Of a stretch of DNA of 64,000 nt, positions 43,129-64,000 are shown one piece after another. Positions within the stretch are counted from its first letter, which is position 1. The number at the start of each line of letters is the position of its first letter. The translations under genes and the position numbers were made by a program. The notes beneath the pieces were generated by a model. The model searched no databases, had not been told where the DNA came from, and saw only the letters and a program-made list of their open reading frames with translations. Source of the stretch: Rhizobiales bacterium 62-17 (GTDB taxonomy: Bacteria; Pseudomonadota; Alphaproteobacteria; Rhizobiales; Beijerinckiaceae); contig MKVW01000004.1 in NCBI GenBank assembly GCA_001898965.1, forward strand, positions 672,180-736,179. Direction: 5' to 3'.

Positions 43129-43279
43129 TGTCATCAGCAAGCCCGTACAGGAACCTCCGCCGCGCATGCGACGTTTGGGTTTCGGTGCGGGCTTGCTTAC
43201 ATTTAGCCCAATGAAAAGGCGGGCACGGGGGTCTTGGCACAAGATCTTGGTGCGATGCCGCTGCAACATCGGAGAATTC

Positions 43280-49749: not shown

Positions 49750-49817
49750 CGGGCAAACTCCTTGCGGGACAAGGACAATGCCAGACAACAGCCCCATCGG
49801 AAATAGCCAGGTTCGGC

Positions 49818-50669
49818 CTATCTCTCCGAGCGTGGCAGCGACCAGGGCGCCAGCCATTTCTGGATGAACACCATCAACTGGAAGAAGCACAGGCTGATCG
49901 CCACCAGGATCGCCAGCGATGCGAAACTGTGGTTGATCTTGAAGAACGACGTCGAGAACATGATCATATAGCCGAGGCCTTTCTCGGCCGCGACGAATTC
50001 CGCTACCACGGCACCGACCACCGATAAGGTCGTGGCGATCTTCAGCGCGCTGAAAATGTAGGGCAGCGCGAACGGCAGACGGATCTGCGTATATTCACGC
50101 CAGCGGCTGGCGCGCAATGAGCGCGACAATTCGATCAATTCCTCCGGCGTCGCCAACAGGCCGGCGGTGGTCGTCACGACAATAGGAAAGAAGGTGATGA
50201 GAAATGTAATCACCACACGCGGCAGATCGGAAGCACCCAAGGTCACCACGATAATCGGCGCGACGGCAACGATCGGCATGGAATGAACCACGACGATCAA
50301 GGGATAAAGCGTGCGCGACAACAGTTTCGACGAGGACAAGGCAATGGCCAGCGGAATCGAAATCACCACCGCCGCGAGATAACCCATCAAGGCGACACGG
50401 ATCGTCGCCCAGGCATGACCAAGCCACAGATCGCCGGAAATATCGCGCGCGCCCATCACGATGGCGCTCGGCGGCGGTAGCAGGAAGCTTGGCACGCGGA
50501 ACAGGCGGCAGCCGGCTTCCCACACGATCAGCAAAGTGAGGAAGGCAAGCAGCGGCGCGCACTTGTTCGCCAAAGCCGCAATATTGAGACCCGGCATGGC
50601 CTTGCGCGGCTCCGGCTCAGGCGGCGCGACGGCTGAAGAGGCTGGCGCGGATGTGGTTGGCGAGAGCAT
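49818..50669 (-). CDS. ABC transporter permease (NitT/TauT type)
   Basis: 283 residues from the ATG at 50669, inside the end of the ATPase gene; a shorter ATG at 50597 gives 258 residues. Six helices are visible, with CAPLLAFLTLLIVWEAG at the start and the cytoplasmic coupling loop SLRASRWREYTQIRLPFALP. It is the last gene of a five-gene leftward unit: 2OG oxygenase, VOC protein, binding protein, ATPase, permease. That order suggests uptake followed by oxidation of one substrate. Confidence 0.85.
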   Translation of the reverse strand: MLSPTTSAPASSAVAPPEPEPRKAMPGLNIAALANKCAPLLAFLTLLIVWEAGCRLFRVPSFLLPPPSAIVMGARDISGDLWLGHAWATIRVALMGYLAAVVISIPLAIALSSSKLLSRTLYPLIVVVHSMPIVAVAPIIVVTLGASDLPRVVITFLITFFPIVVTTTAGLLATPEELIELSRSLRASRWREYTQIRLPFALPYIFSALKIATTLSVVGAVVAEFVAAEKGLGYMIMFSTSFFKINHSFASLAILVAISLCFFQLMVFIQKWLAPWSLPRSER

Positions 50670-51405
50670 TGAACTGAGGATCCGACAAGGAAGCAAGGGA
50701 ACGCGGGCGCGGCACGCGCACGTCGAGCACTTCGCGAACAGCGCCGGGGCGCGGCGTCATGACGATGATGCGATCGGCAAGCAGAACCGCCTCGGGGATG
50801 GAATGGGTGATGAACAGCACCGTCTTGGGTTTTTCAGCCCAAATGCGCATGAGTTCGAAACTCATCTCATCGCGCGTCAGGGCATCGAGCGCCGAGAATG
50901 GTTCGTCCATCAGCAGAATATCCGGATCAAGCAGCAGCGCTCGGGCAATCGCCACGCGCTGCTGCATGCCGCCGGACAATTGATCGATCCCCGCGCCCGC
51001 GAAGGCGCTAAGTTCGACCAGATCGAGCAATTCCCGCGCCCGCGTCTTCTCCGCCTCGGTGACACGCCCATATTTATGGCGCATCGGAAAGGTGACGTTG
51101 TCGAGCACGTTGTACCAAGGCAACAAGGTTGGCCGTTGAAACACGATGCCGATTTCGTCGCGCGGCTCCGTCACTTTCATGCCGAAGATTTCGACGCTGC
51201 CGCCGGTCGGAAACACCAGCCCGGCCAGCAGGCGCAGCAAGGTCGACTTGCCGCAGCCCGAAGGCCCAAGCACCGCGACGAATTCATGCCGGCCGATGTC
51301 GAACGAGAGATTGTCGAGCGCCCGCACCCGGCCGCCATCGTCGCGGGTGAAATCCTGCACCACATTGCGAAAGCGGATGACGGGTTCGTCCATCGCACCC
51401 ATCAT
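50617..51405 (-). CDS. ABC transporter ATP-binding protein (NitT/TauT type)
   Basis: 262 residues. Walker [11 protein letters not shown]-loop VFQRPTLLPWYNVLDNV, signature LSGGMQQR, Walker [13 protein letters not shown] and switch His in LFITHSIPEAVLLADR. PRPGAVREVLDVRVPRPR is characteristic of this subfamily. It starts 1 nt after the binding-protein stop and its last part overlaps the permease. It drives the importer of the leftward operon. Confidence 0.92.
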   Translation of the reverse strand: MMGAMDEPVIRFRNVVQDFTRDDGGRVRALDNLSFDIGRHEFVAVLGPSGCGKSTLLRLLAGLVFPTGGSVEIFGMKVTEPRDEIGIVFQRPTLLPWYNVLDNVTFPMRHKYGRVTEAEKTRARELLDLVELSAFAGAGIDQLSGGMQQRVAIARALLLDPDILLMDEPFSALDALTRDEMSFELMRIWAEKPKTVLFITHSIPEAVLLADRIIVMTPRPGAVREVLDVRVPRPRSLASLSDPQFNALANHIRASLFSRRAA

Positions 51406-51406
51406 C

Positions 51407-52411
51407 CTATTTGGGCAGAAACGAGCGGTTGAGGGTCTTTTCCGGATCGATCTTGTCGAGCGGAATGTTCTGCGACTTGGCGGTCCATTCCCAGGTCACG
51501 GCAACACGCTTGGCATCCAAGGCACCAAGCCCTTCGGCCTTGGTGATGGCATTGTCGAGCAAGGGCACGATGGTCAGGAACTGCTCCTCGACAAGCTTGG
51601 CGTCCATTTCCGGAAACTGCACCTTCATCGAGCGAGCGACATCCTTGGGATCGGCCAGCGCCATCTGCGCCGCTTTCAACCAGGCCTTGACGACCTTGCG
51701 CACCACCTCGGGCCGCTCCTTGATCGCCTTGTCGGACGCAAAGACCGAATAGCCATAACCATCATAGCCATATTCCGACCACGGCAGCATTTTCAGCTTC
51801 TTGCCGGTTTCGCCCAGCGCCCGCACGAAGGGCGGCGAAGCGGTGGTCCAATTGATGGTGGCATCGACCTGACCGGTGGCCAGCATCGGCACCAGCGCCG
51901 CCGGATCGACCTTGATCAAAGTGATCTTCTTTTCATCGATGCCATTGTTAGCGAGGATCAGCGGCCAGATGACGTTGGAGGAGGTGAAGGTCGCCGTCGC
52001 CACTTTCTTGCCGACGAGATCCTTCAACGAAGTCACGCCCGAGCCTTCGACCGTGAAGGTCGCGTCCGGCTGCACCGGAAAAGCACTGGCGACCACCGAA
52101 ACTGGCACCTCGCCCTGCGCCTTGGCCTGCAGGAACGCCGCCAAGCCACCGCTGCCGACATCGGCCGTGCCCGTCGCGATACGCGTCACCACTTCCGACG
52201 AGCCGCGCGCCGACTGGATCGTCACATCCAGCCCTTCGGCGGCGAACAGGCCTTTCTCCAAAGCATAGAAAGGAATGGCCTTGTCGCCGCCCGGCAGCCA
52301 GTCGTTCATATAGATGACCTTCTCGGCCGCATGCGCACCGGCGCCAGCGCCAAGAACGATCGTTGCCGCAACGAGATGGCGGCCAACAGCACGGATCACA
52401 GCCTGAAACAT
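51407..52411 (-). CDS. ABC transporter substrate-binding protein (NMT1/THI5 type)
   Basis: 334 residues from the ATG at 52411, preceded by AAAGGAG. A signal peptide (AVGRHLVAATIVLGAGAGAHA) leads to the NMT1/THI5-like fold: VIYMNDWLPGGDKAIPFYALEK, GLDVTIQSARGSSEVVTRIATG and LVGKKVATATFTSSNVIWPLIL. The DWLPGGDKAIPFYA segment resembles THI5-like receptors of pyrimidines and related aromatic nitrogen rings. It lies 62 nt after the VOC gene in the operon. Confidence 0.9.
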   Translation of the reverse strand: MFQAVIRAVGRHLVAATIVLGAGAGAHAAEKVIYMNDWLPGGDKAIPFYALEKGLFAAEGLDVTIQSARGSSEVVTRIATGTADVGSGGLAAFLQAKAQGEVPVSVVASAFPVQPDATFTVEGSGVTSLKDLVGKKVATATFTSSNVIWPLILANNGIDEKKITLIKVDPAALVPMLATGQVDATINWTTASPPFVRALGETGKKLKMLPWSEYGYDGYGYSVFASDKAIKERPEVVRKVVKAWLKAAQMALADPKDVARSMKVQFPEMDAKLVEEQFLTIVPLLDNAITKAEGLGALDAKRVAVTWEWTAKSQNIPLDKIDPEKTLNRSFLPK

Positions 52412-52473
52412 GGATGACTCCTTTGAAAGATTGAAAGCAACGCACATGCCAGCCCTCGTCGCGCGCGGCGCCG

Positions 52474-52938
52474 TCATGTGGTCACACGGAAAGGAAGCGC
52501 GCCGCTTTTCTCGATTTCGGTCCAGGGCGTACGCGGGCCGACGCGATGATTGACGCGGAAAATATTGCCTTCCGGATCTTCGAGAACCGTCTGGCGAGCG
52601 TTGTAATAGGTGTCGTAGGGCGGCTTGACGATACGCCCGCCTTGCTCGGTAACTTGCGCTGCGGTGGCATCGACGACCGCCGCATCGCCGACTTCGATGG
52701 TGAAATAGGCGCGCACCGGCGCGCGTCCCTCTCCCGCGCGATCGGCAATGCCAAGCAAGTCATAGGCTTGCGGCGCATTGAAGCCGAGCTCGACACCATG
52801 CGCATCGAGACAGCGATAAATCGGCGAACGGTGCGCCTCAATCTCGGCAAAGCCGAACAGATCAGCATAGAATGCCGCGAGACGATCCGGATCGCGCGCC
52901 AGAATGTTCACATAAGCGATACGCGGCGCGCCAGTCAT
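52474..52938 (-). CDS. VOC family protein (glyoxalase/dioxygenase superfamily)
   Basis: 154 residues. Its ATG overlaps the 2OG oxygenase stop by 4 nt (ATGA). The fold is a single VOC domain: IAYVNILARDPDRLAAFYADLF, IEAHRSPIYRCLDAHGVELGF, RAYFTIEVGDAAVV and TVLEDPEGNIFRVNHR. Whether it carries a complete metal site cannot be told; the usual first His is not obvious. In an operon with an oxygenase and importer, it may be a ring-cleaving or accessory enzyme. No substrate is assigned. Confidence 0.82.
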   Translation of the reverse strand: MTGAPRIAYVNILARDPDRLAAFYADLFGFAEIEAHRSPIYRCLDAHGVELGFNAPQAYDLLGIADRAGEGRAPVRAYFTIEVGDAAVVDATAAQVTEQGGRIVKPPYDTYYNARQTVLEDPEGNIFRVNHRVGPRTPWTEIEKSGALPFRVTT

Positions 52939-53942
52939 GACACCGCCTTCGGCGCATAGCCGTAGGAACGACGGAACATTTCCGCCGTATGTTCATAAGC
53001 CGTGCAGGCTTCAAAACGACGCGGATGCCCTGCCGTGATGCTGCCGGGCACAGCATCGATCACCGCATCCGGGCGCGGGCTGTAAAAGAACGGTGCCGAA
53101 TAGCGATCATGCCCGCTGCGGTTATTCTTCACCCGATGGAAGTTCGAGTTGTAGAGCCCGTTGGTCCAGCGGGCCATCAGATCGCCGAGATTGATGACAA
53201 AGGAGCCATCGATCGGCGGCGCTTCGATCCAATCGCCATCGGCATTGCGCACTTCGAGGCCGCCGGTCGCATCCTGCGCTAGGATGGTGACGCCGCCCCA
53301 ATCCGTATGGGCGCCAGCGCCGATCTGATTGAACAGCGCATTTTCGGGCTGCGGCGGATATTTGATCAGCCGTGCCGTGCCCGACGGCATATCGAAGAAT
53401 GAGCCAAACCAATTCGCCGGCAAATCGAGCGACAATGCCAGCAAAGCCAGCAGTCGATCGCCGAGCGAACGCATCTCTGCCCAATAGTCGATCATATGTG
53501 CGCGAAATTCCGGCAGCTCGTCCGGCCACTGATTGTGGCCGAAATTGCGGATGTGCTTGATCGCCCACGGATGATCGTCCGGTAGCTCCATGCCGCTGTA
53601 GAAACTCTCCTTGAGATCGGGCGGCGCTGCCTTCGCCTTGTCATCCTGGCTGTCGAGCACCTGACCGCCGACAGGTTCATAACCGGCCGTGGTCGGCGAC
53701 TTCTTCATATGAACAGCCATCTTCCGCTCGTGCGGCAGATCGAAGAAGGCCTTGGCGAATTGAAAATGACGCTCCATCAGCGCGGCGGGCACGCCATGTC
53801 CGGTGATGTAGAAGAAGCCCGTCTCGCGGCAGGCGCGATGAATGTCCCAGGCCACGGCTTGCGCGCCGGCTGCATCGGCGGCACGGGCGAGATCGATCAG
53901 AGGTATGGTTTTCGCGGCTTTCGGCGGTTCGTAGAGATGCAT
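52935..53942 (-). CDS. 2-oxoglutarate/Fe(II) oxygenase, isopenicillin-N-synthase-like
   Basis: 335 residues from the ATG at 53942. The N-terminal half is the IPNS-like region (IPLIDLARAADAAGAQAVAWD, ACRETGFFYITGHGVP). The iron site is complete: His and Asp in GAHTDWGGVTIL, and distal His in NSNFHRVKNN. RYSAPFF supplies the Arg/Ser that hold 2-oxoglutarate. These enzymes hydroxylate or ring-open small molecules. It heads the five-gene leftward operon and is divergent from a LysR regulator. Confidence 0.9.
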   Translation of the reverse strand: MHLYEPPKAAKTIPLIDLARAADAAGAQAVAWDIHRACRETGFFYITGHGVPAALMERHFQFAKAFFDLPHERKMAVHMKKSPTTAGYEPVGGQVLDSQDDKAKAAPPDLKESFYSGMELPDDHPWAIKHIRNFGHNQWPDELPEFRAHMIDYWAEMRSLGDRLLALLALSLDLPANWFGSFFDMPSGTARLIKYPPQPENALFNQIGAGAHTDWGGVTILAQDATGGLEVRNADGDWIEAPPIDGSFVINLGDLMARWTNGLYNSNFHRVKNNRSGHDRYSAPFFYSPRPDAVIDAVPGSITAGHPRRFEACTAYEHTAEMFRRSYGYAPKAVS

Positions 53943-54087
53943 GCGGTGTCCTGACGGCTGATGCCCGAAACACACCACGCTGCCGGATCAGCGCCCATCA
54001 GCGCCCGCCGTATGTCGCGATAACCTGCTGCTTATGCCGGCAATTCCAAAGCTTCTTCTTGGCAGCGAACAAGTCGCCTCCCGACTG

Positions 54088-54120
54088 GCATCGCAAATGC
54101 ATAACAATTCTAAACGATGC
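54088..54120. promoter_or_regulatory. Candidate LysR binding region in the divergent promoter
   Basis: GCATCG (54088-54093) and CGATGC (54115-54120) are inverted arms 21 nt apart, around an AT-rich centre (AAATGCATAACAATTCTAAA). They lie just before the LysR gene and upstream of the divergent oxygenase operon, the standard position of a LysR target. Confidence 0.3.
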
Positions 54121-54135
54121 ACGGGGATCCGGACC

Positions 54136-55161
54136 ATGAGCGTATTGGGACGACGAGAACTCGACATCCGCCTGCTGCGTGTATTGCAGCTTTTGCTGCA
54201 GGAACGCAGCGTTTCACGGGTTGCTGAACGGCTCGGCCAAAGCCAGCCGGCGGTCAGCGCCACCTTGCGCCAACTGCGCGAAATCATTGGCGATCAGCTT
54301 CTCGTGCGCAGTGGCAACAGCCTCGTGCCGACGGCCCGCGCTGTCGAAATCTCCGAGACGGTCGATGCCACGCTCGCCGGCTTCGATCAGATCGCCACCT
54401 GGCGCGACGAGATCCAGCCGGAGATCGCCCGCCGCCACGTGCGCATCGTCGCGTCGAATGGTCTGGCCGTGCTCTTTGTGCCCCGCCTGGTCGAACTGCT
54501 GCGAAAAGAGGCACCTGGCGTCGAACTGGAATTCTGTGGCGTGCCGATCGACGGCTCGCTGCCGAAGCGGCTCGAAAGCGGCGAAGTCGATCTCATCATC
54601 GGTAATTGGCCATCCCCGGCGGAAGACCTGCGCATCGCGCCTTTGATGGAAACCGACATCGTCTGCATGGCGCGCCCCTCCCATCCTTTGGCCAAACACA
54701 CGGCGCTCGATCTCGAATGCTACATGGAACAGGCCCATGTCTCGCCGACACCAACGGCGGTGATGCATTGGAGCCCGATCGACGGACGGCTGGCGCAGAT
54801 GCACCGGCAGCGCAATGTCGCCATTTCCGTCCCGGAATATTCGATGATCCCTTATGTGCTGTCGCGCGCCGATCTCTTGTTCACCACCGCCCGGCCCTTC
54901 GCCGAGCATCTTGCCTCCTTCATGCCGTTTTCCATTCTCGGCGCACCACCGGAGCTGGGTCGGATGAAATTCTATATGCTGTGGCACGAACGCGCCCATA
55001 ATTCGGCGTTCGAGCGCTGGCTGCGCGACATCGTACGCAAGGTTGCCGCCGAAATTCGCTCCATCGACACGCCGCCCGCGCTGCATAAGTCGCCAGTGAT
55101 GGCCCCCATAATGGCGCAGCAGATGGCCGCTCAAAGGAGCAAGGCCTTTACTCCCAGATGA
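54136..55161 (+). CDS. LysR family regulator
   Basis: 341 residues from the ATG at 54136. The winged helix is RELDIRLLRVLQLLLQERSVSR, VAERLGQSQPAVSATLRQLREI, and the effector domain begins ARRHVRIVASNGLAVLFVPRLV. The loop PYVLSRADLLFTTARPFAEHL matches the effector pocket of aromatic-acid-responsive LTTRs. It is divergent from the 2OG-oxygenase/ABC operon and 58 nt upstream of the first Rieske gene on its own strand, so it may control both. Confidence 0.92.
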   Translation: MSVLGRRELDIRLLRVLQLLLQERSVSRVAERLGQSQPAVSATLRQLREIIGDQLLVRSGNSLVPTARAVEISETVDATLAGFDQIATWRDEIQPEIARRHVRIVASNGLAVLFVPRLVELLRKEAPGVELEFCGVPIDGSLPKRLESGEVDLIIGNWPSPAEDLRIAPLMETDIVCMARPSHPLAKHTALDLECYMEQAHVSPTPTAVMHWSPIDGRLAQMHRQRNVAISVPEYSMIPYVLSRADLLFTTARPFAEHLASFMPFSILGAPPELGRMKFYMLWHERAHNSAFERWLRDIVRKVAAEIRSIDTPPALHKSPVMAPIMAQQMAAQRSKAFTPR

Positions 55162-55219
55162 AGGCTGCGACCGCCCATCGGCATGGGCGGATCAGCGGCA
55201 TGAAGCTGGAGCCGACCCT

Positions 55220-56233
55220 ATGCTGGTGACGAAACAGAATGTCTTTCGCAAGTTCTGGTATGCGACCGTTTCGGTCGAATCGCTGAAGGACGGCCCGAAG
55301 CCCTTCGTTCTCTTGAACGAAAAGCTGGTTCTCTTCCTCGACGCCGAAGGCAAGGCCGGCTGCCTGGAAGATCGCTGCTGCCATCGCACCGCCAAACTGT
55401 CGAAAGGCTGGATGAAGAACGGCAATCTCGTCTGTGGCTATCACGGCTGGGAATATGACCGCGACGGCAAGCTCGTCACCATCCCGCAGTTTCCGCCAGA
55501 CCAGGCTTTGCCCGACTGCAAGGTGAAAAACTATCGCACCACTGAGCGCTACGGCTATGTCTGGGTGGCGCTGGAGGAACCGCTACAGCCGATTCCTGAA
55601 TTCGAGGAAGAAGGCATGCCGGGCTGGCGCCGTATTCACCAATTCTACGACATCTGGCAGACCTCTTCGCTACGCCTGATGGAAAATTCCTTCGACAATT
55701 CCCACTTTGCCTTCGTCCACAAAGGCACGTTCGGCGACATCAACCAGCCGAAACCCGAGAAATACGAAATCACCGAAAAGGATTGGGGCTTTGAGGCGGA
55801 GACCATCGTCACCGTGGTCAATCCGCCCAATGCCGAACGCATCACCGGTACGCGCGATCCCTACACCAAACGGCATATGCGCAATCGCTGGTTCGTGCCC
55901 TTCTCGCGCCGCCTCGACATGGAATATCCGTCCGGCCTGCGCCATATCATCATGAACTGCGCCACGCCGATCGACGACAAATCCATTCAAGTCGTGCAGA
56001 TTCTCTTCCGCAACGACGACGAAGCGAGCTGCTCGACCCAGGAATTGATCGATTGGGATGCGGCCATTTTGGTCGAGGACCGCGAAATCCTCGAATCGAC
56101 GTCGCCCGATGCCATCGTCGACATGAGCCGGCGTCTTGAAATGCACATGCCGTCCGACCGACCGGGCATGATCATGCGCCGTCGCTTGCTCGATCTGATG
56201 AAGCAACATGGCGAGGAAGAGATCCCCGCCTAA
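55220..56233 (+). CDS. Rieske [2Fe-2S] aromatic oxygenase, alpha subunit (first copy)
   Basis: 337 residues. The Rieske motif is complete: C-x-H in EDRCCHRTAKLSKG and C-x2-H in GNLVCGYHGWEYD. The mononuclear Fe site shows NSFDNSHFAFVH, with two His, in the catalytic domain. It is of the short, single-subunit type seen in vanillate O-demethylase and related monooxygenases. It needs an external ferredoxin/reductase, which is not in the window. It follows the LysR gene by 58 nt and is followed by a strong terminator. Confidence 0.92.
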   Translation: MLVTKQNVFRKFWYATVSVESLKDGPKPFVLLNEKLVLFLDAEGKAGCLEDRCCHRTAKLSKGWMKNGNLVCGYHGWEYDRDGKLVTIPQFPPDQALPDCKVKNYRTTERYGYVWVALEEPLQPIPEFEEEGMPGWRRIHQFYDIWQTSSLRLMENSFDNSHFAFVHKGTFGDINQPKPEKYEITEKDWGFEAETIVTVVNPPNAERITGTRDPYTKRHMRNRWFVPFSRRLDMEYPSGLRHIIMNCATPIDDKSIQVVQILFRNDDEASCSTQELIDWDAAILVEDREILESTSPDAIVDMSRRLEMHMPSDRPGMIMRRRLLDLMKQHGEEEIPA

Positions 56234-56249
56234 GCGGATCACGGAAACA

Positions 56250-56279
56250 AAAAAGGCGGGGCCGCGACCCCGCCTTTTT
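56250..56279. terminator. Bidirectional terminator between Rieske and TauD-like genes
   Basis: GGCGGGG (56255-56261) pairs with CCCCGCC (56268-56274) around CCGCGA. A-rich bases precede it and TTTTT follows, so the hairpin can terminate transcription from both convergent genes. Confidence 0.9.
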
Positions 56280-56296
56280 AGTGTCTTCGCTCCGGT

Positions 56297-57184: not shown

Positions 57185-57699
57185 CGCTGCCTCCTTTCCA
57201 AGCGGGATCAAGCTCCCATCGGCAGGCCTCTCGGCAGCCCCATCGACGAGCTAGGCTCATCGTCGCCGCGCCTTCTTTGGCATCATGAGCGCGCCCGGTG
57301 TCCCCTCCCATGAGGCGAGGTTTATAGCTCGCATAAGATGTCGATTATTGACTGGCTTGTTCGAAGCGAGATTCGGCATTTCCGCGCCTTTCTGGGCGCG
57401 TCATGACAGCGCCATGTCGACTTGCAGTACGTGCCCTTCAATCAAGACGTATTTCACCGCTCGGTACAGATTTCGACCGAATAATTTCGGTGCCGGCCTT
57501 GCCCGCTTTCTGGGCTGATCGATCAGAACTCGCATGCAGCGCGCGCAACTAGCCGCATTGCTGAGCACCATCAGCACCAACATTCATCCCATGAGATCAA
57601 GCTTATGAAGCCCATAAAGCTGCGATTATTGGCGCTTCTCTTGCTTGCGTGAATGATGCGGAACGTTCGTCGCTCACGACCCCCTTTCAGTCGAGGTGC
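57185..57699. other. Divergent intergenic region between TauD-like and second Rieske genes
   Basis: This 515-nt stretch holds the promoters for both sides. Short frames exist on both strands but none has a good SD or a recognisable product. I see no RNA gene or clear repeat. A small reading frame on the right strand at 57338 (22 codons) is unsupported. Confidence 0.5.
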
Positions 57700-58728
57700 A
57701 TGATGTTGATGACGCAGGAACCGATGCTGAGGCGCTTCTGGCATTGCCTGTTTCCCGTTTCCGATCTCACCGAAAAACCACGCGCCTTTCGTCTTCTCGG
57801 CGAAGACATCGTCGTCTGGAAAGACCTCGACGGCAAACCCCATGCGGTTCAAGACCGCTGTCCGCATCGAACGGCCAAACTCTCACTTGGCACCCTCGAC
57901 AACGGCCATATCGTCTGCCCCTACCACGGCTGGGCGTTCGACGGCGACGGCGCCTGCAAACTCATCCCTCAGGAAACCACCGTGCGCCAGCGCGCCATCC
58001 ACGTGCGTGCCTATCATTGCGCGGAACGTTATGGGCAGGTCTGGGTCTGTCTCGACGAGCCGGCCTTCGATATTCCTCTCATCGAGCCTTATCGCAGGCC
58101 GGGCTTCCGCCAGGTCTTCGAATTCTCGGAGGATTGGGCCTGCACGCCATTGCGCATTATGGAGAACGAGTTCGACGCTGCGCATCTCTCCTTCGTTCAC
58201 GCGACGAGCTTCGGCAGCACCGACCCGATCCCCAATCTGCCCAGTATCGAAATTCTCGACGATGGCTTTATCGCCCGCAGCCGCCCGGCCGTGCGCAATC
58301 CGGAAGGACAACGCGTCGCCCTGCACACGACCGAAGATACGACCTTCCGCATGACCACCGGCCGCTATTACGTGCCGTTCTTCCGTGTCACCGAGATCGC
58401 TTATCCGAACGGTTTGAAAAACATCCTCGTGACGGCATTGACACCCATCGATGACCGCAACACGCGGTTCAATCAGTTTGTTCTCCGCAACGACACGGAA
58501 GAGGAGGTCAGCACCGAACAGGTGATCGCCTTCGACCGCATGGTGACCCTGGAAGACAAGGCCATTCTCGAATCGACCGACCCAGACGTTCCCTTCGATA
58601 ACTCCGAAGGCGAGGAAGAACATATGGCGAGCGACCGGCCCGGCCTCTTGATGCGCAAGCTGGTCCGCTCGGTCTGCGACGATCTACGCAAATCCGCCAC
58701 CAAGGAAACCGAACTTGCGGGCGCCTGA
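57700..58728 (+). CDS. Rieske [2Fe-2S] aromatic oxygenase, alpha subunit (second copy)
   Basis: 342 residues from the ATG at 57700 (GAGGTG upstream; a second ATG at 57709 is possible). Rieske motif: CPHRTAKLSLG and CPYHGWAFDGDG, with both Cys and His pairs present. The catalytic domain has MENEFDAAHLSFVHATSFG, the two-His Fe site. It is distantly alike the first copy, and both are of the single-subunit monooxygenase type. It starts a rightward operon with two binding proteins, an ATPase and a permease. Its 3' end was copied in the local duplication downstream. Confidence 0.92.
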   Translation: MMLMTQEPMLRRFWHCLFPVSDLTEKPRAFRLLGEDIVVWKDLDGKPHAVQDRCPHRTAKLSLGTLDNGHIVCPYHGWAFDGDGACKLIPQETTVRQRAIHVRAYHCAERYGQVWVCLDEPAFDIPLIEPYRRPGFRQVFEFSEDWACTPLRIMENEFDAAHLSFVHATSFGSTDPIPNLPSIEILDDGFIARSRPAVRNPEGQRVALHTTEDTTFRMTTGRYYVPFFRVTEIAYPNGLKNILVTALTPIDDRNTRFNQFVLRNDTEEEVSTEQVIAFDRMVTLEDKAILESTDPDVPFDNSEGEEEHMASDRPGLLMRKLVRSVCDDLRKSATKETELAGA

Positions 58729-59830
58729 GCGCCAAAAGGAGCGAGCGATGACAAGCTTGTTGACGAGGCGCGGCGCACTCCTGGGCGGAGCCGGGATTAT
58801 CGCCGCGCCATGGGTCGCCCGAGGGCAGGAAGCACTGCCGAAAGTGCGTTTCACCGCCGGCTGGTCGTTCCAGGGCGGGCAGTCCTACATGCTGCGGGCC
58901 GCTCATGCGGGCTATTTCAAGGATGCCGGCGTCGATGTCTCGATCTCGCGCGGCTTCGGCTCCGGCCGCCTGCCGGTCGACATCGCTGGCGGCGTGTTCG
59001 ATCTCGGCGCCGGCGAAATGAGTGCGACGCTGAAATTCATGGCCGAGAACCCGGATTCCGATCTCGTCATCGTCGCTATTCTGGAAGACACAAACCAGGT
59101 GGCGATGACGGTGCTTGCCGATGGACCGATCAAGAAACCGAAGGATATCGAAGGCAACACATTGGCGGCGCCTGAATCCGATGTCGGCCGGCAGCTTTTC
59201 CCGGCCTATGCCAAATTCGCCGGTATCGATGCGAGCAAGATCACCTGGGTTTCCGTGGCACCGGAGCTACGCGAACCGATGCTGGTGCAAAAGCGCGCCA
59301 CGGGCGTCACCGGCAATGCCTCAAGCACGGCGCTGAGCCTGAAGCGCATCGGCATCGATCTGCCGCAGCAGCGCATTTTCTTCTATCGCGATGCAGGGCT
59401 CGATCTGTACTCGAACTGCTATGTCGCCTCGCGCAAATTCGCCGAGCGCAATCCACAAGCCCTGAAGGCCGCTCTCGCCGGCCTGTTCCGCGCCTATGTG
59501 GAATTCTACCGCGACCCGGCTGACTCGCTGAAAGTGCTCGCCACAGCCGAACCGTTGACCGATCTCAAGATCGAAAGCGAGCGTGTCGCCTTCCTCAAGC
59601 AGATCCTACCGCTCGGCAAAGGCATGAAGGAGAAAGGCATTTCAGCCGTCGATCCGGAACGGCTCAGCCTCTGCGTCACCACCATCGAGGAAGCCTATGG
59701 CCTGCCGAAGCGGCTGTCGGCGGAGCGCGTCTATACGGACGCTTATCTGCCGCCCACTGCGCAGCGCATGATTTGACGGACGAAGAAACCGAACTTGCAG
59801 GCGCTTGGCGCCGGAAAGAGTGAGAGATGA
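58701..59830 (+). repeat. Tandem duplication unit (left copy and junction) including Rieske 3' end
   Basis: The bases before the first binding protein (58701-58747) encode the end of the Rieske gene (KETELAGA, stop) followed by an SD. A diverged copy of the same stretch lies between the two binding proteins, at about 59780-59826, including AAACCGAACTTGC. There it has no coding role. This is a fossil duplication junction: a unit of about 1.08 kb was copied in tandem. Confidence 0.75.
58748..59776 (+). CDS. ABC substrate-binding protein (NMT1/THI5-like), first tandem copy
   Basis: 342 residues from the ATG at 58748, preceded by AAAAGGAG. LLTRRGALLGGAGIIAAP is a Tat-type signal. The fold is RFTAGWSFQGGQSYMLRAAHAG, FGSGRLPVDIAGGVFDLGAG, ILEDTNQVAMTVLAD and VAPELREPMLVQKRATG. 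The second copy has the same length and is about four fifths identical by eye, without gaps. Both copies precede a single ATPase and permease, so they may give the importer a choice of ligand. The Rieske stop is 19 nt upstream. Confidence 0.92.
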   Translation: MTSLLTRRGALLGGAGIIAAPWVARGQEALPKVRFTAGWSFQGGQSYMLRAAHAGYFKDAGVDVSISRGFGSGRLPVDIAGGVFDLGAGEMSATLKFMAENPDSDLVIVAILEDTNQVAMTVLADGPIKKPKDIEGNTLAAPESDVGRQLFPAYAKFAGIDASKITWVSVAPELREPMLVQKRATGVTGNASSTALSLKRIGIDLPQQRIFFYRDAGLDLYSNCYVASRKFAERNPQALKAALAGLFRAYVEFYRDPADSLKVLATAEPLTDLKIESERVAFLKQILPLGKGMKEKGISAVDPERLSLCVTTIEEAYGLPKRLSAERVYTDAYLPPTAQRMI

Positions 59831-60855
59831 CAGGCTTATTGACCCGACGCAGCGCTCTACTTGGCGGAGCCGGCATCCTCGCCGCGCCCTGGGTTGCTCG
59901 CGGCCAAGCCGCGCTGCCGAGAGTTCGCTTGACCACGGGTTGGTCGTTCCAAGGTACGCACTCCTTTATGTTGCGCGCCGTCCAAGCGGGTTATTTCAAA
60001 GAGGCGGGCGCCGAGGTTGTGGTCTCGCGTGGTTTCGGGTCGGGCCGCTTGCCGGTAGATATCGCCGGCGGCGTTTTCGACATCGGCTACGGCGACTTGA
60101 GCGCCACGATTAAATTCATGGCGGACAATCCAGATTCGGATGTCATCATCGTTGGCGTTCTGGAAGACACCAATCAAACAGCCATGACCGTCCTCGCCGA
60201 CGGGCCGATCAAAGCACCGAAAGACATCGAGGGCAACACGCTCGCCGCGCCGGAATCCGATGCCGGACGCCAGCTCTTCCCGGCCTATGCGAAATACGCC
60301 GGTATCGACCTCAACAAAATCACCTGGATATCGGTCGCGCCCGAACTGCGCGAACCGATGCTGGTGCAGAAGCGGGCCACTGGAATCACTGGCCTCGCTT
60401 CCAGCACAGCGCTCGGCCTAAAACGCATCGGCGTCGACATGCCGCAACAGCGCATCTTCTTCTACCGCGATTTCGGGATCAATCTCTACTCAAACGGTTT
60501 CGTCGCCTCGCGCAAATTCGCCGAGCGCAATCCAGAAGCGCTGAAGGCGGCGCTCGCCGGCCTGTTCCGCGCCTACGTGGAATACTACCGCGATCCAACC
60601 GACTCGCTGAAGGTATTGGCCGAAGTCGAGCCATTGACCGATCTTAAAATCGAGACGGAGCGCGTCAACTTCGTCAAAGAGGTCATGCCTCTAGGAAAAT
60701 ACATGCAGGAAAATGGCATTTCGGCGGTCGAACCGGAACGTCTCGCTTTCTGCATTCGCACCATCGAGGACGCCTATGGCTTGCCGAAGCGACTGTCGCC
60801 GGAACGCGTCTATACCGACGCCTATTTGCCGCCAGCGTCGCAGCGCATGATCTGA
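59827..60855 (+). CDS. ABC substrate-binding protein (NMT1/THI5-like), second tandem copy
   Basis: 342 residues. It has the same signal (LLTRRSALLGGAGILAAP) and core as the first copy, with many substitutions in candidate ligand-contact regions (for example TTGWSFQGTHSFMLRAVQAG, and GYGDLSATIKFMADNPDSD). The conserved ELREPMLVQKRATG and FFYRD segments are kept. Its SD (AAAGAGTGAGAG) is weaker than that of the first copy. The stop shares one base with the ATPase start (TGATG). It either binds a second ligand or is redundant. Confidence 0.92.
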   Translation: MTGLLTRRSALLGGAGILAAPWVARGQAALPRVRLTTGWSFQGTHSFMLRAVQAGYFKEAGAEVVVSRGFGSGRLPVDIAGGVFDIGYGDLSATIKFMADNPDSDVIIVGVLEDTNQTAMTVLADGPIKAPKDIEGNTLAAPESDAGRQLFPAYAKYAGIDLNKITWISVAPELREPMLVQKRATGITGLASSTALGLKRIGVDMPQQRIFFYRDFGINLYSNGFVASRKFAERNPEALKAALAGLFRAYVEYYRDPTDSLKVLAEVEPLTDLKIETERVNFVKEVMPLGKYMQENGISAVEPERLAFCIRTIEDAYGLPKRLSPERVYTDAYLPPASQRMI

Positions 60856-61679
60856 TGGACCCGGAAATGACAACACGACCCTTCGTCGAAATCGACCGCG
60901 TCTGGATGCGCTATAACGGATCTGGGGGCACCTTGGCGCTGCGCAACACGTCGCTTACCGTCGACAAACAGGAATTCGTCGCCGTGGTCGGGCCCTCCGG
61001 CTGCGGCAAGTCGACCCTGATGCGCCTCGTCACGGGCCTGTGGCCGGCCAGCGCCGGCTCGGTCATCGTCGCCGGCAAGGAGGTGGACCGGCCGCTCTCC
61101 ATCGCCGGCATGGCCTTTCAGAATCCCACGCTGCTACCGTGGCGAACGGTCCTCGACAACGTCATGCTGCCGTTCGAAGTTGTCGACACTCTGGCGGCCC
61201 GTCTGCGCAAGGATCGCGCCCTCTATGAACAGCAATGCCGCGAACTCCTTGAACTCGTCGGCCTGAAGGGCTTCGAGCACAAAAACCCCTGGCAATTGTC
61301 CGGCGGCATGCAGCAGCGTGCTTCGCTCTGCCGCGCGCTCGTGCACCAGCCGCAACTGCTGATGCTCGATGAGCCTTTCGGCGCGCTCGATGTCTTCACC
61401 CGCGAAGATTTGTGGGGCGTCCTACAGAATCTCTGGTTGGCGCGCCGCCCCACCGTCATTCTCGTCACCCACGACTTGCGCGAAGCGGCTTTCCTCGCCG
61501 ATCGCATCCTGGTGATGACCGCCCGGCCCGGCCGCATCATGATCGAACGCAAGGTCGATCTGCCGCGCCCACGCACGCCGCAGATGACCTACAGCAGCTA
61601 TTTTCAGGATCTCGTGCAGGATCTGCGTGAGCATATCGATCGTGCCCGCCAGGGTGAGGAATTGGCCCATGCAGAGTGA
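60855..61679 (+). CDS. ABC transporter ATP-binding protein (NitT/TauT type)
   Basis: 274 residues. Walker [11 protein letters not shown]-loop AFQNPTLLPWRTVLDNV, signature LSGGMQQRAS, Walker B LLMLDEPFGALD and switch His in VILVTHDLREAAFLADR. MTARPGRIMIERKVDLPRPR is the subfamily tail. Its start overlaps the preceding binding-protein stop and its end overlaps the permease start by 11 nt, so the three are tightly coupled. Confidence 0.93.
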   Translation: MDPEMTTRPFVEIDRVWMRYNGSGGTLALRNTSLTVDKQEFVAVVGPSGCGKSTLMRLVTGLWPASAGSVIVAGKEVDRPLSIAGMAFQNPTLLPWRTVLDNVMLPFEVVDTLAARLRKDRALYEQQCRELLELVGLKGFEHKNPWQLSGGMQQRASLCRALVHQPQLLMLDEPFGALDVFTREDLWGVLQNLWLARRPTVILVTHDLREAAFLADRILVMTARPGRIMIERKVDLPRPRTPQMTYSSYFQDLVQDLREHIDRARQGEELAHAE

Positions 61680-62604
61680 AGCCGTCGCCACCCTCCTGAC
61701 CGATGCACCACCATCGAAGCCGGCCGAACTCCCGCCGACGAAATCTCAGATCAAGTCCGTGCCCACGAACGACGGCATGCTGGACAGCGAACTCGCCCGC
61801 GATGCCGCCATTGTCGCGGCAGCCGTACGCCGTCGCCGATTCATGCGCCTCCTGCCCTGGCTGGTCATCACCGGCCTGCTGTTGCTGTGGGAGATCGGCG
61901 TGCGCCTCTTCGACATACCGGAATTCGTCCTGCCGGCGCCAACCGTGGTGGCGCAAAGCATGGCCAAGTGGTGGAGCCCGATCGTCAGTAATGCACTTCA
62001 GACATTGAAAACGACGCTCATCGGCTTCGCGATGGCGAACGTTCTCGGGTTGGCGCTTGGCGTTCTCGTCGGCTCATCGACCATGGTCTACCATGGGCTT
62101 TATCCGCTGCTGATCGCCTTCAACAGCATTCCCAAGGTCGCCTTGGTGCCGATCCTGGTCATCTGGTGCGGCATCGGCACCCTACCGGCCGTCCTCACCT
62201 CGTTTCTGATCAGCTTCTTTCCGATCACCGTCAATGTCGCCGCTGGCATCGCCACGGTGGAGCCGGAACTGCGCGACGTGCTGCGGGCGCTGGGCGCCCG
62301 ACCACTCAAGATCGTGCGCAAGGTCGGCCTGCCACGCTCCATGCCCTATTATTTCGCCAGCTTGAAGATCGCCATTACGTCGTCGTTCCTCGGCAGCATT
62401 TTGGCCGAGACGATCGCCGGCCAGAGCGGCATCGGCCATCTCATGATCGTCGCTTCGAGCCGGTTCGACGTGCCGCTGGTTTTCGCTGGCGTCGTCGTAA
62501 CGGCAGCAATGAGCGTCACCATGTATACGATCGCCACCATCATCGAGACGCGTACGATCAGTTGGGCGACGCGCAGCCAGGGCGATCAGGCCACGGGCGT
62601 GTAA
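61669..62604 (+). CDS. ABC transporter permease (NitT/TauT type)
   Basis: 311 residues from the ATG at 61669, preceded by GGTGAGGA and inside the ATPase end. A long cytoplasmic N-terminus (about 70 residues) precedes six helices, the first being LPWLVITGLLLLWEIGVRLF. The coupling loop is LRALGARPLKIVRKVGLPRSM. It ends exactly against the convergent UbiD-like gene, with adjacent stop codons. Confidence 0.92.
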   Translation: MQSEAVATLLTDAPPSKPAELPPTKSQIKSVPTNDGMLDSELARDAAIVAAAVRRRRFMRLLPWLVITGLLLLWEIGVRLFDIPEFVLPAPTVVAQSMAKWWSPIVSNALQTLKTTLIGFAMANVLGLALGVLVGSSTMVYHGLYPLLIAFNSIPKVALVPILVIWCGIGTLPAVLTSFLISFFPITVNVAAGIATVEPELRDVLRALGARPLKIVRKVGLPRSMPYYFASLKIAITSSFLGSILAETIAGQSGIGHLMIVASSRFDVPLVFAGVVVTAAMSVTMYTIATIIETRTISWATRSQGDQATGV

Positions 62605-63987
62605 CTAGCCGGCCAGCAGACGCCGTGCCCAGGCCGCGGCCGCGGCGGGCACGGCGTTGCGCTCGAATTCCCACCCCGGTGGCATGGTGGCATCGAGCGC
62701 CATCTTGGTCGATACCCCATCATGCGACGACGGATCGAGCCGATTGCAGAAGGCATCGGGCACCATGAACATGTCGCGATCGGCCTGAAAGCGTGTCGCC
62801 AGTGCCCAGAGCACTTCGCTTTCATCGAAGACATTCACGTCATCGTCCACAGCCACGGCGAGCTTGATATAGGGATCGAGGCCCATCAGGAGCATCAAAG
62901 CTTGCCGCGCCTGGCCCTTCGCCATCTGTTTCATCGAGAGATAGGCGTGAAAGTGCGTGCCTGATTTCGGATAGTTCAAGGCGACAAGGCCCGGCACCAT
63001 TTCCTTCAGCCGGAGATAGACATGCGCCTCGCGCGCGCTGCGCCCAAGCAGCAGATGTTCGGCCGAATAGCCGGGAATGATGTCGTGAAAGATGGGATCG
63101 ACGCGGGAGGTGATGGCCTTCACCACGAAAACATTGCGCGTCGAGCGATCCGTCGCATAGCCGGTATATTCGCCATAAGGTCCCTCGTCCTCATGGTCGT
63201 CGGCGAGGATTTCGCCCTCCAGCACATATTCGGCGAAAGCCGGTACCTCGACGTCGATCGTCCGGCATTTCACCAGCGCCACCGGCTCGCCCATCAGCGC
63301 GCCGGCAATATCGAGCTCATCAACCTCCTTGGCGACTTTGGCTGCGGCGGCAAGATTGATTGCCGGATGGGTGCCGATCACCACGGCCACTTCGAGATTG
63401 CGCTTCAGCTCGCGGGCGCGCGCGAGATGTTCCCAGATGTGGCCGCGTGAATGCAGGCTGGCACCGAACCTGTTCGGCCCTTTCAATTGCAGACGCTGAT
63501 AGCTGAGATTGCGCACACCCGTATCGGGATCTTTGCAGACGAGAATACCGGAGCCGATGTAACGCCCAGCGTCTTTTTCGAAGTGGCGGCTGATCGGCAA
63601 TTGGCCAACATCGAGAGCCGCCCCTTCAACCACGACCTCCTGCACCGGGCCGTCTGCGACCATGACTGAGGAGAGAGGCTGTCCCTGGGCCCGGCTCCAA
63701 ACCGCATTGAAACCACCCGGCGGGGCGCCCACCATGGCCGCGATCCGATCGCGACAGCCAAAGAGGTTGGTGATCACCGGCCCACGGAAGCCGGTTGGCG
63801 CATCGAGCCACACCACCGGCGAGCGCCCCTGACGCTCAAGCTCGAGCACCAAGGCGGTCGGATAATAATCGAGATCAACGGGTTCGCTGACGCGCAGCAA
63901 ATCTCTCTCCGGCAAGGCCGCGAGCCAGGTGCGCAGCGACGGTGGCTCCAACGCACCGGCCGTGGTCCATCGATCCAATGTCAGCAT
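62605..63987 (-). CDS. UbiD family decarboxylase
   Basis: 460 residues from the ATG at 63987, preceded by GAGGGAGAG. Marker segments are RVSEPVDLDYYPTALVLELE, NLFGCRDRIAAMVG, GVRNLSYQRLQLKGPNRFG (substrate/prFMN Arg), and the catalytic acids in EDEGPYGEYTGYATD. The long C-terminal ATRFQADRDMFMVPD is also familial. UbiD enzymes use prenylated FMN made by UbiX to (de)carboxylate aromatic and unsaturated acids. UbiX is not in the window. It converges on the ABC operon. Confidence 0.92.
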   Translation of the reverse strand: MLTLDRWTTAGALEPPSLRTWLAALPERDLLRVSEPVDLDYYPTALVLELERQGRSPVVWLDAPTGFRGPVITNLFGCRDRIAAMVGAPPGGFNAVWSRAQGQPLSSVMVADGPVQEVVVEGAALDVGQLPISRHFEKDAGRYIGSGILVCKDPDTGVRNLSYQRLQLKGPNRFGASLHSRGHIWEHLARARELKRNLEVAVVIGTHPAINLAAAAKVAKEVDELDIAGALMGEPVALVKCRTIDVEVPAFAEYVLEGEILADDHEDEGPYGEYTGYATDRSTRNVFVVKAITSRVDPIFHDIIPGYSAEHLLLGRSAREAHVYLRLKEMVPGLVALNYPKSGTHFHAYLSMKQMAKGQARQALMLLMGLDPYIKLAVAVDDDVNVFDESEVLWALATRFQADRDMFMVPDAFCNRLDPSSHDGVSTKMALDATMPPGWEFERNAVPAAAAAWARRLLAG

Positions 63988-64000
63988 GCGTCTCTCCCTC

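Follow-up and report, generated by a model that had tools for sequence, protein, structure and literature searches.

Several described systems resemble parts of the locus analysed here, which lies in a window of 64,000 nucleotides from Rhizobiales bacterium 62-17. The ndmCDE-type clusters are carried by plasmids of Pseudomonas, Paraburkholderia caffeinilytica and Klebsiella, and their likeness to ndm was judged by gene make-up against a review, the relevant passages of which call the ndmCDE homologues of Klebsiella and Pseudomonas sp. TJI-51 unknown in function and state no function for the 2OG oxygenases of such clusters (PMC4408171). These clusters contain Rieske/reductase-type genes and, except in the P. 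fulva stretch, where none was seen, an NCS2 symporter; most also have a glutathione-S-transferase gene, and some have HpxO. They share with the window a related IPNS-like 2OG oxygenase (41–46% identity) and NdmA-like single-chain Rieske genes, and some have LysR regulators. NdmA ranks among the best solved matches of the two Rieske proteins of the window, yet their identity to the plasmid-cluster genes is 28–32%. Unlike these clusters, the window has NitT/TauT importers, TauD, VOC and UbiD genes, and no reductase. No NdmD-type reductase with an extra Rieske domain, NdmC or NdmE is present among the genes scanned at positions 43166–63999 or in the portion of L003 that was covered.

The clusters of Rhizobium pRL11, Paracoccaceae La6 and Qingshengfaniella have an importer related to importer A of the window (substrate-binding protein 39–44%, ATPase 56–63%, permease 55–63% identity), which adjoins an IPNS-superfamily 2OG oxygenase, as in module A described below. 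However, their oxygenases form a clade distant from the IPNS-like enzyme of the window, and a cytosine deaminase or a PRK12393-type amidohydrolase is present in them, neither of which the window has. Known NitT/TauT importers (taurine, nitrate, sulfonate, ThiY) have in common with the locus an NMT1 binding protein, one ATPase and one permease, whereas no listed NCBIfam model reaches its cut-off for the importers of the window. Decarboxylases of the HmfF/AnInD branch match the UbiD protein best among solved structures, along almost its entire length, and have the same Arg and Glu motif; the window differs in that UbiX is encoded at another locus and none of the 14 block genes belongs to a furoate pathway.

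Gene content and motifs of the block

The block at positions 49818–63987 contains two complete NitT/TauT-type ABC importers and four oxygenases, namely an IPNS-like and a TauD-like 2OG enzyme and two Rieske enzymes of the NdmA/SxtT type. A VOC protein, a LysR regulator and a UbiD decarboxylase complete the set, and no unrelated gene lies in between (Table 1). Each named gene has a Pfam match above the curated cut-off, which confirms the gene list of the preliminary description and its statement that few unrelated genes separate the members. The block is formed by two separable cassettes, module A (IPNS-like enzyme, VOC and importer A) and module B (TauD-like enzyme, Rieske oxygenase, importer B and UbiD). 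The row of cassettes continues past the window end with a LigXa_C-type Rieske, a binding protein, a fused permease, an ATPase and another Rieske; counting this DNA, there is a third cassette of an importer plus non-haem-iron oxygenases. The plus-strand ORF 56300–57313 appears spurious, with neither a Pfam nor an NCBIfam match; TauD is encoded on the minus strand, by the ORF within 56297–57211.

Table 1. Genes of the block, in window coordinates.
Feature	Module	Position	Strand	Remarks
Permease, importer A	A	49818..50696	-	PF00528 8e-28; long ORF, true start maybe 50669 or further in
ATPase, importer A	A	50617..51405	-	PF00005 3.4e-34; Walker A, signature and Walker B intact
NMT1-type substrate-binding protein A	A	51407..52477	-	PF09084 5.2e-39; hydrophobic segment near N-terminus
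Single-domain VOC protein	A	52474..52938	-	PF00903 6.5e-13
IPNS-like Fe(II)/2OG oxygenase	A	52935..53942	-	ATG 53942, ORF to 53978; PF14226 2.6e-31, PF03171 3.1e-26
LysR-type regulator		54034..55161	+	PF03466, PF00126; divergent from module A
Rieske oxygenase 1, NdmA/SxtT-type		55220..56233	+	PF00355, PF19112 (VanA_C)
TauD/TfdA-family Fe(II)/2OG oxygenase	B	56297..57184	-	ORF to 57211; PF02668 1.1e-56
Rieske oxygenase 2, NdmA/SxtT-type	B	57649..58728	+	PF00355, PF19112 (VanA_C)
NMT1-type binding protein B1	B	58715..59776	+	PF09084 1.1e-27; export-type N-terminus
NMT1-type binding protein B2	B	59827..60855	+	PF09084 1.2e-25; tandem duplicate of B1
ATPase, importer B	B	60855..61679	+	PF00005 3.6e-30
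Permease, importer B	B	61627..62604	+	PF00528 1.9e-29
UbiD-family decarboxylase, HmfF-like	B	62605..63987	-	PF01977 6.8e-66, PF20696, PF20695; TIGR00148 317 bits (cut-off 244.85)

The catalytic or nucleotide-binding motifs are intact in both Rieske proteins, the IPNS-like and TauD-like enzymes, UbiD and both ATPases. Both Rieske proteins combine the Rieske motif CxH-x15-17-CxxH and the mononuclear-iron motif D-x2-H-x4-H with a VanA_C domain, the domain composition of VanAB-type enzymes. The nearest solved structures of Rieske 1 are SxtDIOX, SxtT and NdmA, and those of Rieske 2 are NdmA (6icp), then SxtT. There is no partner reductase adjacent to the Rieske genes in the block, and none of the nine genomic matches to PF00175, the one reductase family searched elsewhere in the genome, is on the contig of the window. 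The TauD-like enzyme has the HTD motif and is nearest to 6d1o (109 bits), followed by the TauD-type 3pvj (90 bits). The best NCBIfam match of the LysR regulator is BsrA, with 171 bits under a cut-off of 480. The UbiD protein has three domains (PF20695/PF01977/PF20696), with the Arg in SYQRLQ and the EGPYGE motif conserved, and is HmfF-like by sequence proximity: the nearest solved proteins are HmfF (322 bits) and then AnInD (188 bits), which are furan- and indole-carboxylate decarboxylases. A UbiX gene, which the preliminary description suggested looking for elsewhere in the genome, is present at C3:286889-287395, and its product is 63% identical to a UbiD-linked UbiX of Ponticoccus.

Importers A and B each comprise an NMT1-type binding protein, a BPD_transp_1 permease and an ABC ATPase with intact motifs. 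All listed NCBIfam matches to named subfamilies (taurine, nitrate, sulfonate), the best 25 in the case of the ATPases, fall below cut-off, and the importer ligands are therefore left unassigned. The binding proteins of the two importers are only 22–24% identical to each other, which speaks for two ligands. Binding protein A is nearest to the solved chains 4nmy, THI5 and THI13, with 3ix1 also among them. B1 and B2 are 80% identical, and a single copy of this type is shown in the genomes G022, G030 and G070. The TauD Pfam match and the top importer models, which are of the taurine, sulfonate and nitrate types, could be read as an organosulfur-scavenging system for taurine or sulfonates. We consider this highly improbable, as the TauD-like enzyme reaches 118.9 of the 313 bits of the taurine dioxygenase equivalog, the taurine ATPase and SsuA_fam models are similarly far under their cut-offs (219/357 and 104/163.5 bits), and UbiD, Rieske and IPNS-like enzymes fit such company poorly.

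Separability of the two modules

The block was compared with 12 other same-genus genomes that have an IPNS-like gene at E<=1e-130, several of which are fragmented drafts. Both halves are together in one of them, G022, a near relative that is collinear over the flanks too. In G030, the modules are at least about 129 kb apart, on two long contigs. No UbiD at E<=1e-110 is present among the matches listed for the other ten genomes, five of which give an explicit no-match. The IPNS, VOC and importer-A genes are within one locus in 7/12 genomes (G022, G030, G034, G035, G005, G027 and G017), and the IPNS and VOC genes of G007 and G024 are beside an A-like importer. The importer A permease is 92% identical in G022 and 67–85% in G030, G035, G005, G027 and G017. 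Module A of G034 is cut by a contig end before the permease, and that of G005 has other genes interspersed. UbiD, TauD and importer B occur together in G022, G030 (contig C85) and G070. In the window, G022 and G030, module A is extended by the LysR regulator and Rieske 1, with Rieske 1 adjoining module A and LysR in the latter two. Modules A and B are thus separable, and each recurs in other genomes; side by side, the cassettes occur in a single small branch within the genus.

The preliminary description proposed a single stepwise pathway, in which both importers would carry the same or related aromatic or N-heterocyclic acid, the four oxygenases would act in turn and UbiD would decarboxylate the product. 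The parts lie together without any unrelated gene, the entire block is kept in G022, and in Ponticoccus an A-type importer (40–60% identical) adjoins a UbiD-UbiX cluster, amidohydrolases and a xanthine-dehydrogenase-type enzyme. The conservation of the halves in G022 and the arrangement in Ponticoccus make a joint role possible. However, in the readable data the gene set is not conserved as a unit, an outcome that the preliminary description had named as refuting its proposal: the one genome with adjacent halves is collinear beyond them, G030 splits them, ten genomes have no close UbiD among the listed matches, and the unlike importers speak for two ligands. The single pathway ending in decarboxylation is not borne out, and we regard it as improbable.

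The co-clustering of Rieske and NMT1 genes is in itself unexceptional, because 55 Rieske-domain genes (from 56 rows, two of which share a frame, and counting ferredoxin-type and other Rieske proteins) and 64 NMT1 matches occur in the genome, and 645 of 2000 rotations of NMT1 against Rieske positions gave a 14.2-kb stretch with at least two of each, which the real genome has in this block only. Nine NMT1 genes are at most 5 kb from a Rieske gene, compared to a mean of 5.45, with 221/2000 rotations at or above the observed value. In these rotations, the lengths of five contigs were approximated, and B1 and B2 were counted apart. The real evidence for the modules is the recurrence of each in divergent genomes.

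Relatives of the IPNS-like oxygenase and importer A

The IPNS-like enzyme contains the motifs HTD, FHR and RYS, and matches 9ovh with 245 bits, 6jyv with 204 and thymine dioxygenase with 153. It is closer to these other 2OG oxygenases than to true isopenicillin N synthase, chains of which reach just 66–72 bits, far below them. The enzyme is phylogenetically linked to those of ndmCDE-type and purine-type clusters. The sister group of its 21-row clade (support 100/99) has 14 rows, among them the enzymes from P. putida 1290, Klebsiella, P. caffeinilytica and Acinetobacter SC22; this pairing has a support of 88/83, which falls short of a strict pass. The enclosing 43-row clade (100/94) also takes in one further enzyme from P. 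putida and one from Acinetobacter, and the Thioclava and M. amorphae enzymes and a third Acinetobacter enzyme are outside it. In the Rhizobium-type deaminase clusters, the 2OG oxygenases belong to a different, distant clade, 29–33% identical to the window enzyme. The broader IPNS-like family is matched in 104/384 other genomes of the class sample at E<=1e-45, mostly by distant members.

Purine-type genes, namely an NCS2 symporter, HpxO, allantoicase, BMP-type binding protein or nucleoside hydrolase (classes picked after viewing and without a control), are near IPNS-like relatives in ten of 13 plasmid records inspected out of 60, corresponding to about six independent clusters; six of the 13 are not included in the tree. 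The nearest plasmid ortholog (67%, Agrobacterium CFBP6625) is among the three records without such genes. In G393, an IPNS relative occurs with two cytosine deaminases (573 and 529 bits, cut-off 403). A VOC gene adjoins the IPNS-like gene in several same-genus genomes, in G276 (52%) and in contig C17 of G393 (46%). Relatives of importer A adjoin cytosine deaminase or PRK12393 amidohydrolases, and the plasmid pairing of importer and 2OG oxygenase is found in 43/45 records (41 of Rhizobium/Agrobacterium and two others). PRK12393 is named merely as an amidohydrolase family protein, and the 8-oxoguanine deaminase model matches with 392–429 of 532 bits, below cut-off. The cluster of the window itself contains no deaminase, NCS2 symporter or urate enzyme.

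Proposed roles of the modules

Our main reading, with a probability of roughly 0.55, is that the block consists of self-contained importer plus non-haem-iron oxygenase cassettes, module A for an N-heterocycle and module B for a second compound. The preliminary proposal of import and oxidation of a (hetero)aromatic or N-heterocyclic substrate is retained in part, on the basis of the purine settings of the IPNS relatives, the deaminase neighbours of importer A and the relatives of UbiD. We infer the substrates, the order of steps and the sharing of a reductase as follows. Importer A would take up a purine-, pterin- or pyrimidine-like N-heterocycle, which the IPNS-like enzyme would hydroxylate with 2-oxoglutarate and O2, giving succinate and CO2. 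The VOC protein may act on the same compound or on the product, and Rieske 1 perhaps strips an N- or O-methyl group. We hold this purine-type role of module A at slightly better than even odds, lowered to that level because the ndmCDE homologues are called unknown in function in the cited review and because the nearest plasmid ortholog is outside a purine setting.

Importer B would take up a second, probably heteroaromatic, compound, which Rieske 2 and the TauD-like enzyme would oxidise or dealkylate, and UbiD, with prenyl-FMN from the UbiX encoded elsewhere, would remove a ring carboxylate. The Rieske enzymes would depend on a reductase supplied in trans. A heteroaromatic acid is the probable substrate of module B, since the solved structures closest to its UbiD are furan- and indole-carboxylate decarboxylases; this substrate reading draws mainly on the nearest relatives of one enzyme. 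The VanA_C domains, the LigXa_C-type Rieske enzymes of the next cassette and the inclusion of hydroxyarylic-acid and protocatechuate decarboxylases in the UbiD family would suit an action of module B and Rieske 1 on methoxylated or carboxylated benzenoid lignin acids of the vanillate/syringate type rather than on N-heterocycles. This is unlikely, as the Rieske proteins are nearer to SxtDIOX/SxtT and NdmA than to dicamba DdmC, the VdcC model reaches 271 of 650 bits, UbiD is closest to HmfF and AnInD, and the block has no reductase and no catechol or protocatechuate ring-cleavage gene among its 14.

In a further reading, the block would pair a thymine-hydroxylase-like oxygenase with a prenyl-FMN decarboxylase: the IPNS-like enzyme or the Rieske/TauD pair might oxidise a methyl group of a nucleobase-like heterocycle to a carboxylate that UbiD would remove. 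Such bacterial C-demethylation, which we consider very unlikely, would be analogous to the fungal thymine-to-uracil route, but UbiD is an unrelated decarboxylase. Better supported is a milder reading, which we put forward tentatively, that the IPNS-VOC pair may belong to a widespread, uncharacterised family of 2OG oxygenases that serve the catabolism of purines or pterins.

In place of one catabolic supercluster, the analysis offers two cassettes that can be tested, and it ties a group of IPNS-like oxygenases from bacteria to neighbourhoods of the purine type, among them ndmCDE-type plasmid clusters. Activity of the oxygenase on purines or pterins would mean a further oxygen-dependent step, one masked by the usual annotation 'isopenicillin N synthase family'.

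Gene content and surroundings of the block

The block at 49818–63987 contains every gene named in the preliminary description. The genes are organized into module A, composed of an isopenicillin N synthase (IPNS)-like 2OG oxygenase, a VOC protein, and importer A, and module B, composed of a TauD-like oxygenase, Rieske 2, importer B, and UbiD. The metal-binding, P-loop, and UbiD motifs of the encoded proteins are intact. In module A, a single base separates ATPase A from binding protein A, and the VOC gene overlaps each of its two neighbors by 4 bases. Binding proteins B1 and B2, the products of a tandem duplication, are 80% identical to each other and 22–24% identical to binding protein A. The comparison genomes G022, G030, and G070 carry a single copy, and the duplication perhaps reflects a recent change or a second ligand. 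The start of an FMN_bind_2 gene overlaps the end of permease A. The corresponding position in G022 lacks such a gene, TonB directly following permease A there, and the difference therefore represents a small insertion or loss. An open reading frame opposite the TauD-like gene was rejected as a gene because it had zero family matches.

Features of the block and of its own genome (G000)
Feature	Position	Strand	Remark
Window	G000:C4:672180–736179
FMN_bind_2 gene	49126–49890
Permease A, ATPase A, binding protein A, VOC, IPNS-like oxygenase	left to right in this order	minus	single tight run
LysR regulator, Rieske 1	right of IPNS-like gene	plus
TauD-like oxygenase	right of Rieske 1	minus
Rejected open reading frame	56300–57313	plus	opposite TauD-like gene
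Rieske 2, binding proteins B1 and B2, ATPase B, permease B	right of TauD-like gene	plus
Tandem binding proteins B1 and B2	58715–60855
UbiD	right end of block	minus
Third cassette	L003:1568–8242, G000:C4 just beyond window position 64000		next genes after block
Second IPNS-like gene	L041, G000:C3:602950–603939
UbiX	C3:286889

The third cassette encodes a LigXa_C-type Rieske protein, an SBP_bac-type binding protein, a fused permease, a TOBE-domain ATPase, and a further Rieske protein. Its order is kept in G022 (90–96% identical), and a branched-chain-amino-acid-type importer is positioned about 2 kb beyond it. Since this cassette lies beyond the window end, the block belongs to a longer series of cassettes.

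The genome (5.66 Mb, 9 contigs) contains 55 Rieske-domain genes, which are oxygenases only in part, and 64 matches to NMT1, the binding-protein family of both importers. The two position sets were rotated against each other 2000 times, with B1 and B2 counted apart and the lengths of five contigs approximated. At least one 14.2-kb stretch with at least two Rieske and at least two NMT1 genes occurred in 645 of the 2000 rotations; the actual genome has only one such stretch, the block. NMT1–Rieske adjacencies numbered 5 within 3 kb (mean 3.5; reached in 563 rotations), 9 within 5 kb (mean 5.45; 221 rotations), and 12 within 10 kb (mean 9.9; 559 rotations). At the genome scale, the test does not reject chance as the source of Rieske–NMT1 co-clustering, and since rotations often reach it, the mere co-occurrence of these genes is weak evidence. 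Relatives of Rieske 1 (70–73% identical) adjoin another NitT-type importer at loci L075, L080, and L081 (genomes G070, G071, and G016), which represent an importer-plus-oxygenase plan built from other parts.

Conservation of the two modules

The IPNS-like protein was searched against 61 genomes (its own and 60 others), and 12 other genomes, all of the same genus, matched at E ≤ 1e-130. Orthology in the compared loci denotes tblastn identity without a reciprocal search. The IPNS-like, VOC, and importer-A genes share one locus in G022, G030, G034, G035, G005, G027, and G017; the contig end falls inside the ATPase in G034, additional genes are interposed in G005, and the importer is divergent in G017. 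An A-like importer (43–62%) is located beside the IPNS–VOC pair in G007 and G024. The 19.7 kb read in G032 contain the IPNS-like and VOC genes but not importer A, which is also absent from the 5.6-kb contig carrying the IPNS-like gene of G010. The neighbor reading covered all of the 12 genomes except G015, in which the gene is on a 3-kb contig. Among the loci read, G022 and G030 alone have LysR and Rieske 1 next to module A.

UbiD was matched at E ≤ 1e-110 in three of 149 other genomes (G022, G030, and G070), in all of which TauD and importer B accompany it. A GGDEF/EAL gene intervenes between UbiD and importer B in G030, where TauD has an Amidohydro_2 gene as a neighbor; the module-B contig of G070 is 8.9 kb long. 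The two G030 modules occupy different contigs, with about 77 kb between module A and the closer end of C55 and about 52 kb between module B and that of C85; the distance separating them is thus at least about 129 kb. The window and G022 are the only places where the two modules were found together (G070 was left out of the module-A search). G022 provides no independent evidence for linkage because its flanks are also collinear with the window. The proposal that the block encodes one pathway of import, oxidation, and decarboxylation is therefore not borne out, as, in the loci read, the modules co-occur only in these two collinear regions and are apart in G030. In the class sample (384 other genomes), a single genome matched binding protein B1 (E ≤ 1e-80), a single genome matched UbiD (E ≤ 1e-120), and five matched binding protein A (E ≤ 1e-45). 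A related-locus search of genome contigs returned only three loci, 37% identical, one from Elstera and two from Rhodococcus.

Relatives of the IPNS-like oxygenase and importer A

The IPNS-like protein matches true IPNS at only 66–72 bits and is nearer to 9ovh, 6jyv, SpoC, TraH, TropC, and fungal thymine dioxygenase; its identification as a true IPNS was rejected. The same genome encodes a second IPNS-like protein, 61% identical, beside another NitT-type importer. Plasmid neighborhoods were inspected in 13 of 60 records with relatives. The nearest relative, from Agrobacterium CFBP6625 (67%), is preceded by RidA, LysR, creatininase, an FAD oxidoreductase, and an importer. Relatives at 41–46% belong to clusters with methylxanthine N-demethylase-like (ndmCDE-type) genes in Pseudomonas putida 1290 and 15420352, P. 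fulva, Paraburkholderia caffeinilytica CF1, and Klebsiella MS6671. Others in this range are accompanied by a Rieske gene and BMP-type binding proteins (Acinetobacter SC22) or by two more 2OG oxygenases, an NCS2 symporter, and OmpK (Acinetobacter Tol5, L157, and Moraxella, L161), with HpxO and allantoicase also present in Tol5. The latter three-2OG-oxygenase clusters look like a purine route on plasmids. More distant relatives occur with BMP-type importers (Shinella) or a nucleoside hydrolase (Thioclava).

Purine-type genes, in classes named after looking and without a background count, are located near the relatives in 10 of the 13 records and are absent from those of CFBP6625, M. amorphae, and S. 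garamanticum. Because the Pseudomonas records copy one cluster and the Acinetobacter and Moraxella records are alike, there are about six independent clusters. The Pseudomonas, Paraburkholderia, and Klebsiella clusters are classed as ndmCDE-type from their gene make-up, compared with PMC4408171; according to that paper, the function of the ndmCDE homologs of Klebsiella and Pseudomonas sp. TJI-51 is unknown. A relative in G393 (49%) occurs with two cytosine deaminases, and the IPNS–VOC pair of G276 is near a chlorohydrolase-type amidohydrolase just below the cut-off (407.8 of 416 bits). Relatives in G444 and G521 (55–57%) have none of the queried neighbor genes.

A tree of 87 rows, which excludes the records of P. 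putida 15420352, P. fulva, Tol5, S. garamanticum, Shinella, and Moraxella, places the window enzyme in a 21-row clade (support 100/99). A 14-row clade with four enzymes from ndmCDE-type or purine-type clusters is positioned beside it, with support for the joint node (88/83) under the strict mark. Both are nested in a 43-row clade (100/94) that excludes the Thioclava and M. amorphae enzymes as well as a third one from Acinetobacter.

Binding protein A has relatives at 38–44% in 45 plasmid records, 43 of which carry a second type of 2OG oxygenase within 6 kb. Two records break this pattern, Ponticoccus and Cupriavidus necator pENH92; next to the importer, the latter carries a Rieske gene and genes for RidA, a VanB-type reductase, and a flavin-dependent oxidoreductase. 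An importer match is absent in 17 of 60 records with the second-type oxygenase. Independent cases are few because 41 of the 43 records are from Rhizobium/Agrobacterium; G191 is a further one. The Rhizobium importer is accompanied by a cytosine deaminase (616.8 bits, cut-off 403), and those of La6 and Qingshengfaniella by PRK12393 amidohydrolases (553 and 640 bits, cut-off 543). In G007 and G024, a second-type oxygenase and a PRK12393 amidohydrolase separate the A-like importer from the window-type IPNS–VOC pair. On balance, this company points to nucleobase-like rings as the probable ligand of module A, although the window contains no deaminase.

Module B and substrate classes

Among solved structures, NdmA is the closest to Rieske 2; the closest to Rieske 1 are SxtDIOX/SxtT, followed by NdmA. 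The best alignment of UbiD, spanning almost the entire protein, is with HmfF (6H6V, identified as such in PMC8988006), and the next is with AnInD, the indole-3-carboxylate decarboxylase. Three of 105 plasmid records with UbiD relatives were inspected (42–46%): Paracoccus (L097), Ponticoccus (L101), and Ensifer (L100, by tblastn only) carry amidohydrolase–amidohydrolase–UbiD–UbiX clusters with a GTP-binding protein. The Paracoccus cluster includes an NCS2 symporter, and that of Ponticoccus a xanthine-dehydrogenase-type enzyme and an A-type importer. A distant importer-B relative (binding protein 38%) is near an allantoinase in Azospirillum; that of Deinococcus has no telling neighbor. An IPNS-superfamily gene (37%) is inside the importer-B operon of G378. 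TauD-like genes occur close to NdmA-type Rieske genes at two places in G030 and also in G070, G004, and G034 (in the last, 5.7 kb apart).

The preliminary description had advised looking for UbiX and a Rieske reductase elsewhere in the genome. UbiX was found on contig C3; the genome has nine PF00175 reductase matches, none of them on contig C4, and no reductase gene is adjacent to the Rieske genes. The presence of 55 Rieske-domain genes and 64 NMT1 matches versus nine PF00175 matches suggests shared reductases. SxtT, a Rieske enzyme of this type, runs with the foreign reductase VanB in vitro, according to PMC7293229.

A taurine/sulfonate system was rejected as a reading of the block. The riboflavin/lumichrome pathway (PMC12746152) was rejected as a non-matching precedent: its Rieske enzyme is two-subunit, its decarboxylase is TPP-dependent, and UbiD is not named in the paper's text. 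The gene set of the block was absent among the matches listed for literature on IPNS-family/Rieske/ABC-transporter clusters, deaminase–2OG, thymine hydroxylase/isoorotate, and PA0147. Judging from gene neighborhoods, we consider a purine-, pterin-, or pyrimidine-like heterocycle to be the probable substrate class of module A (probability about 0.55); any substrate class proposed for module B would be more tentative. The purine-linked oxygenase family is of more interest than the cluster itself.
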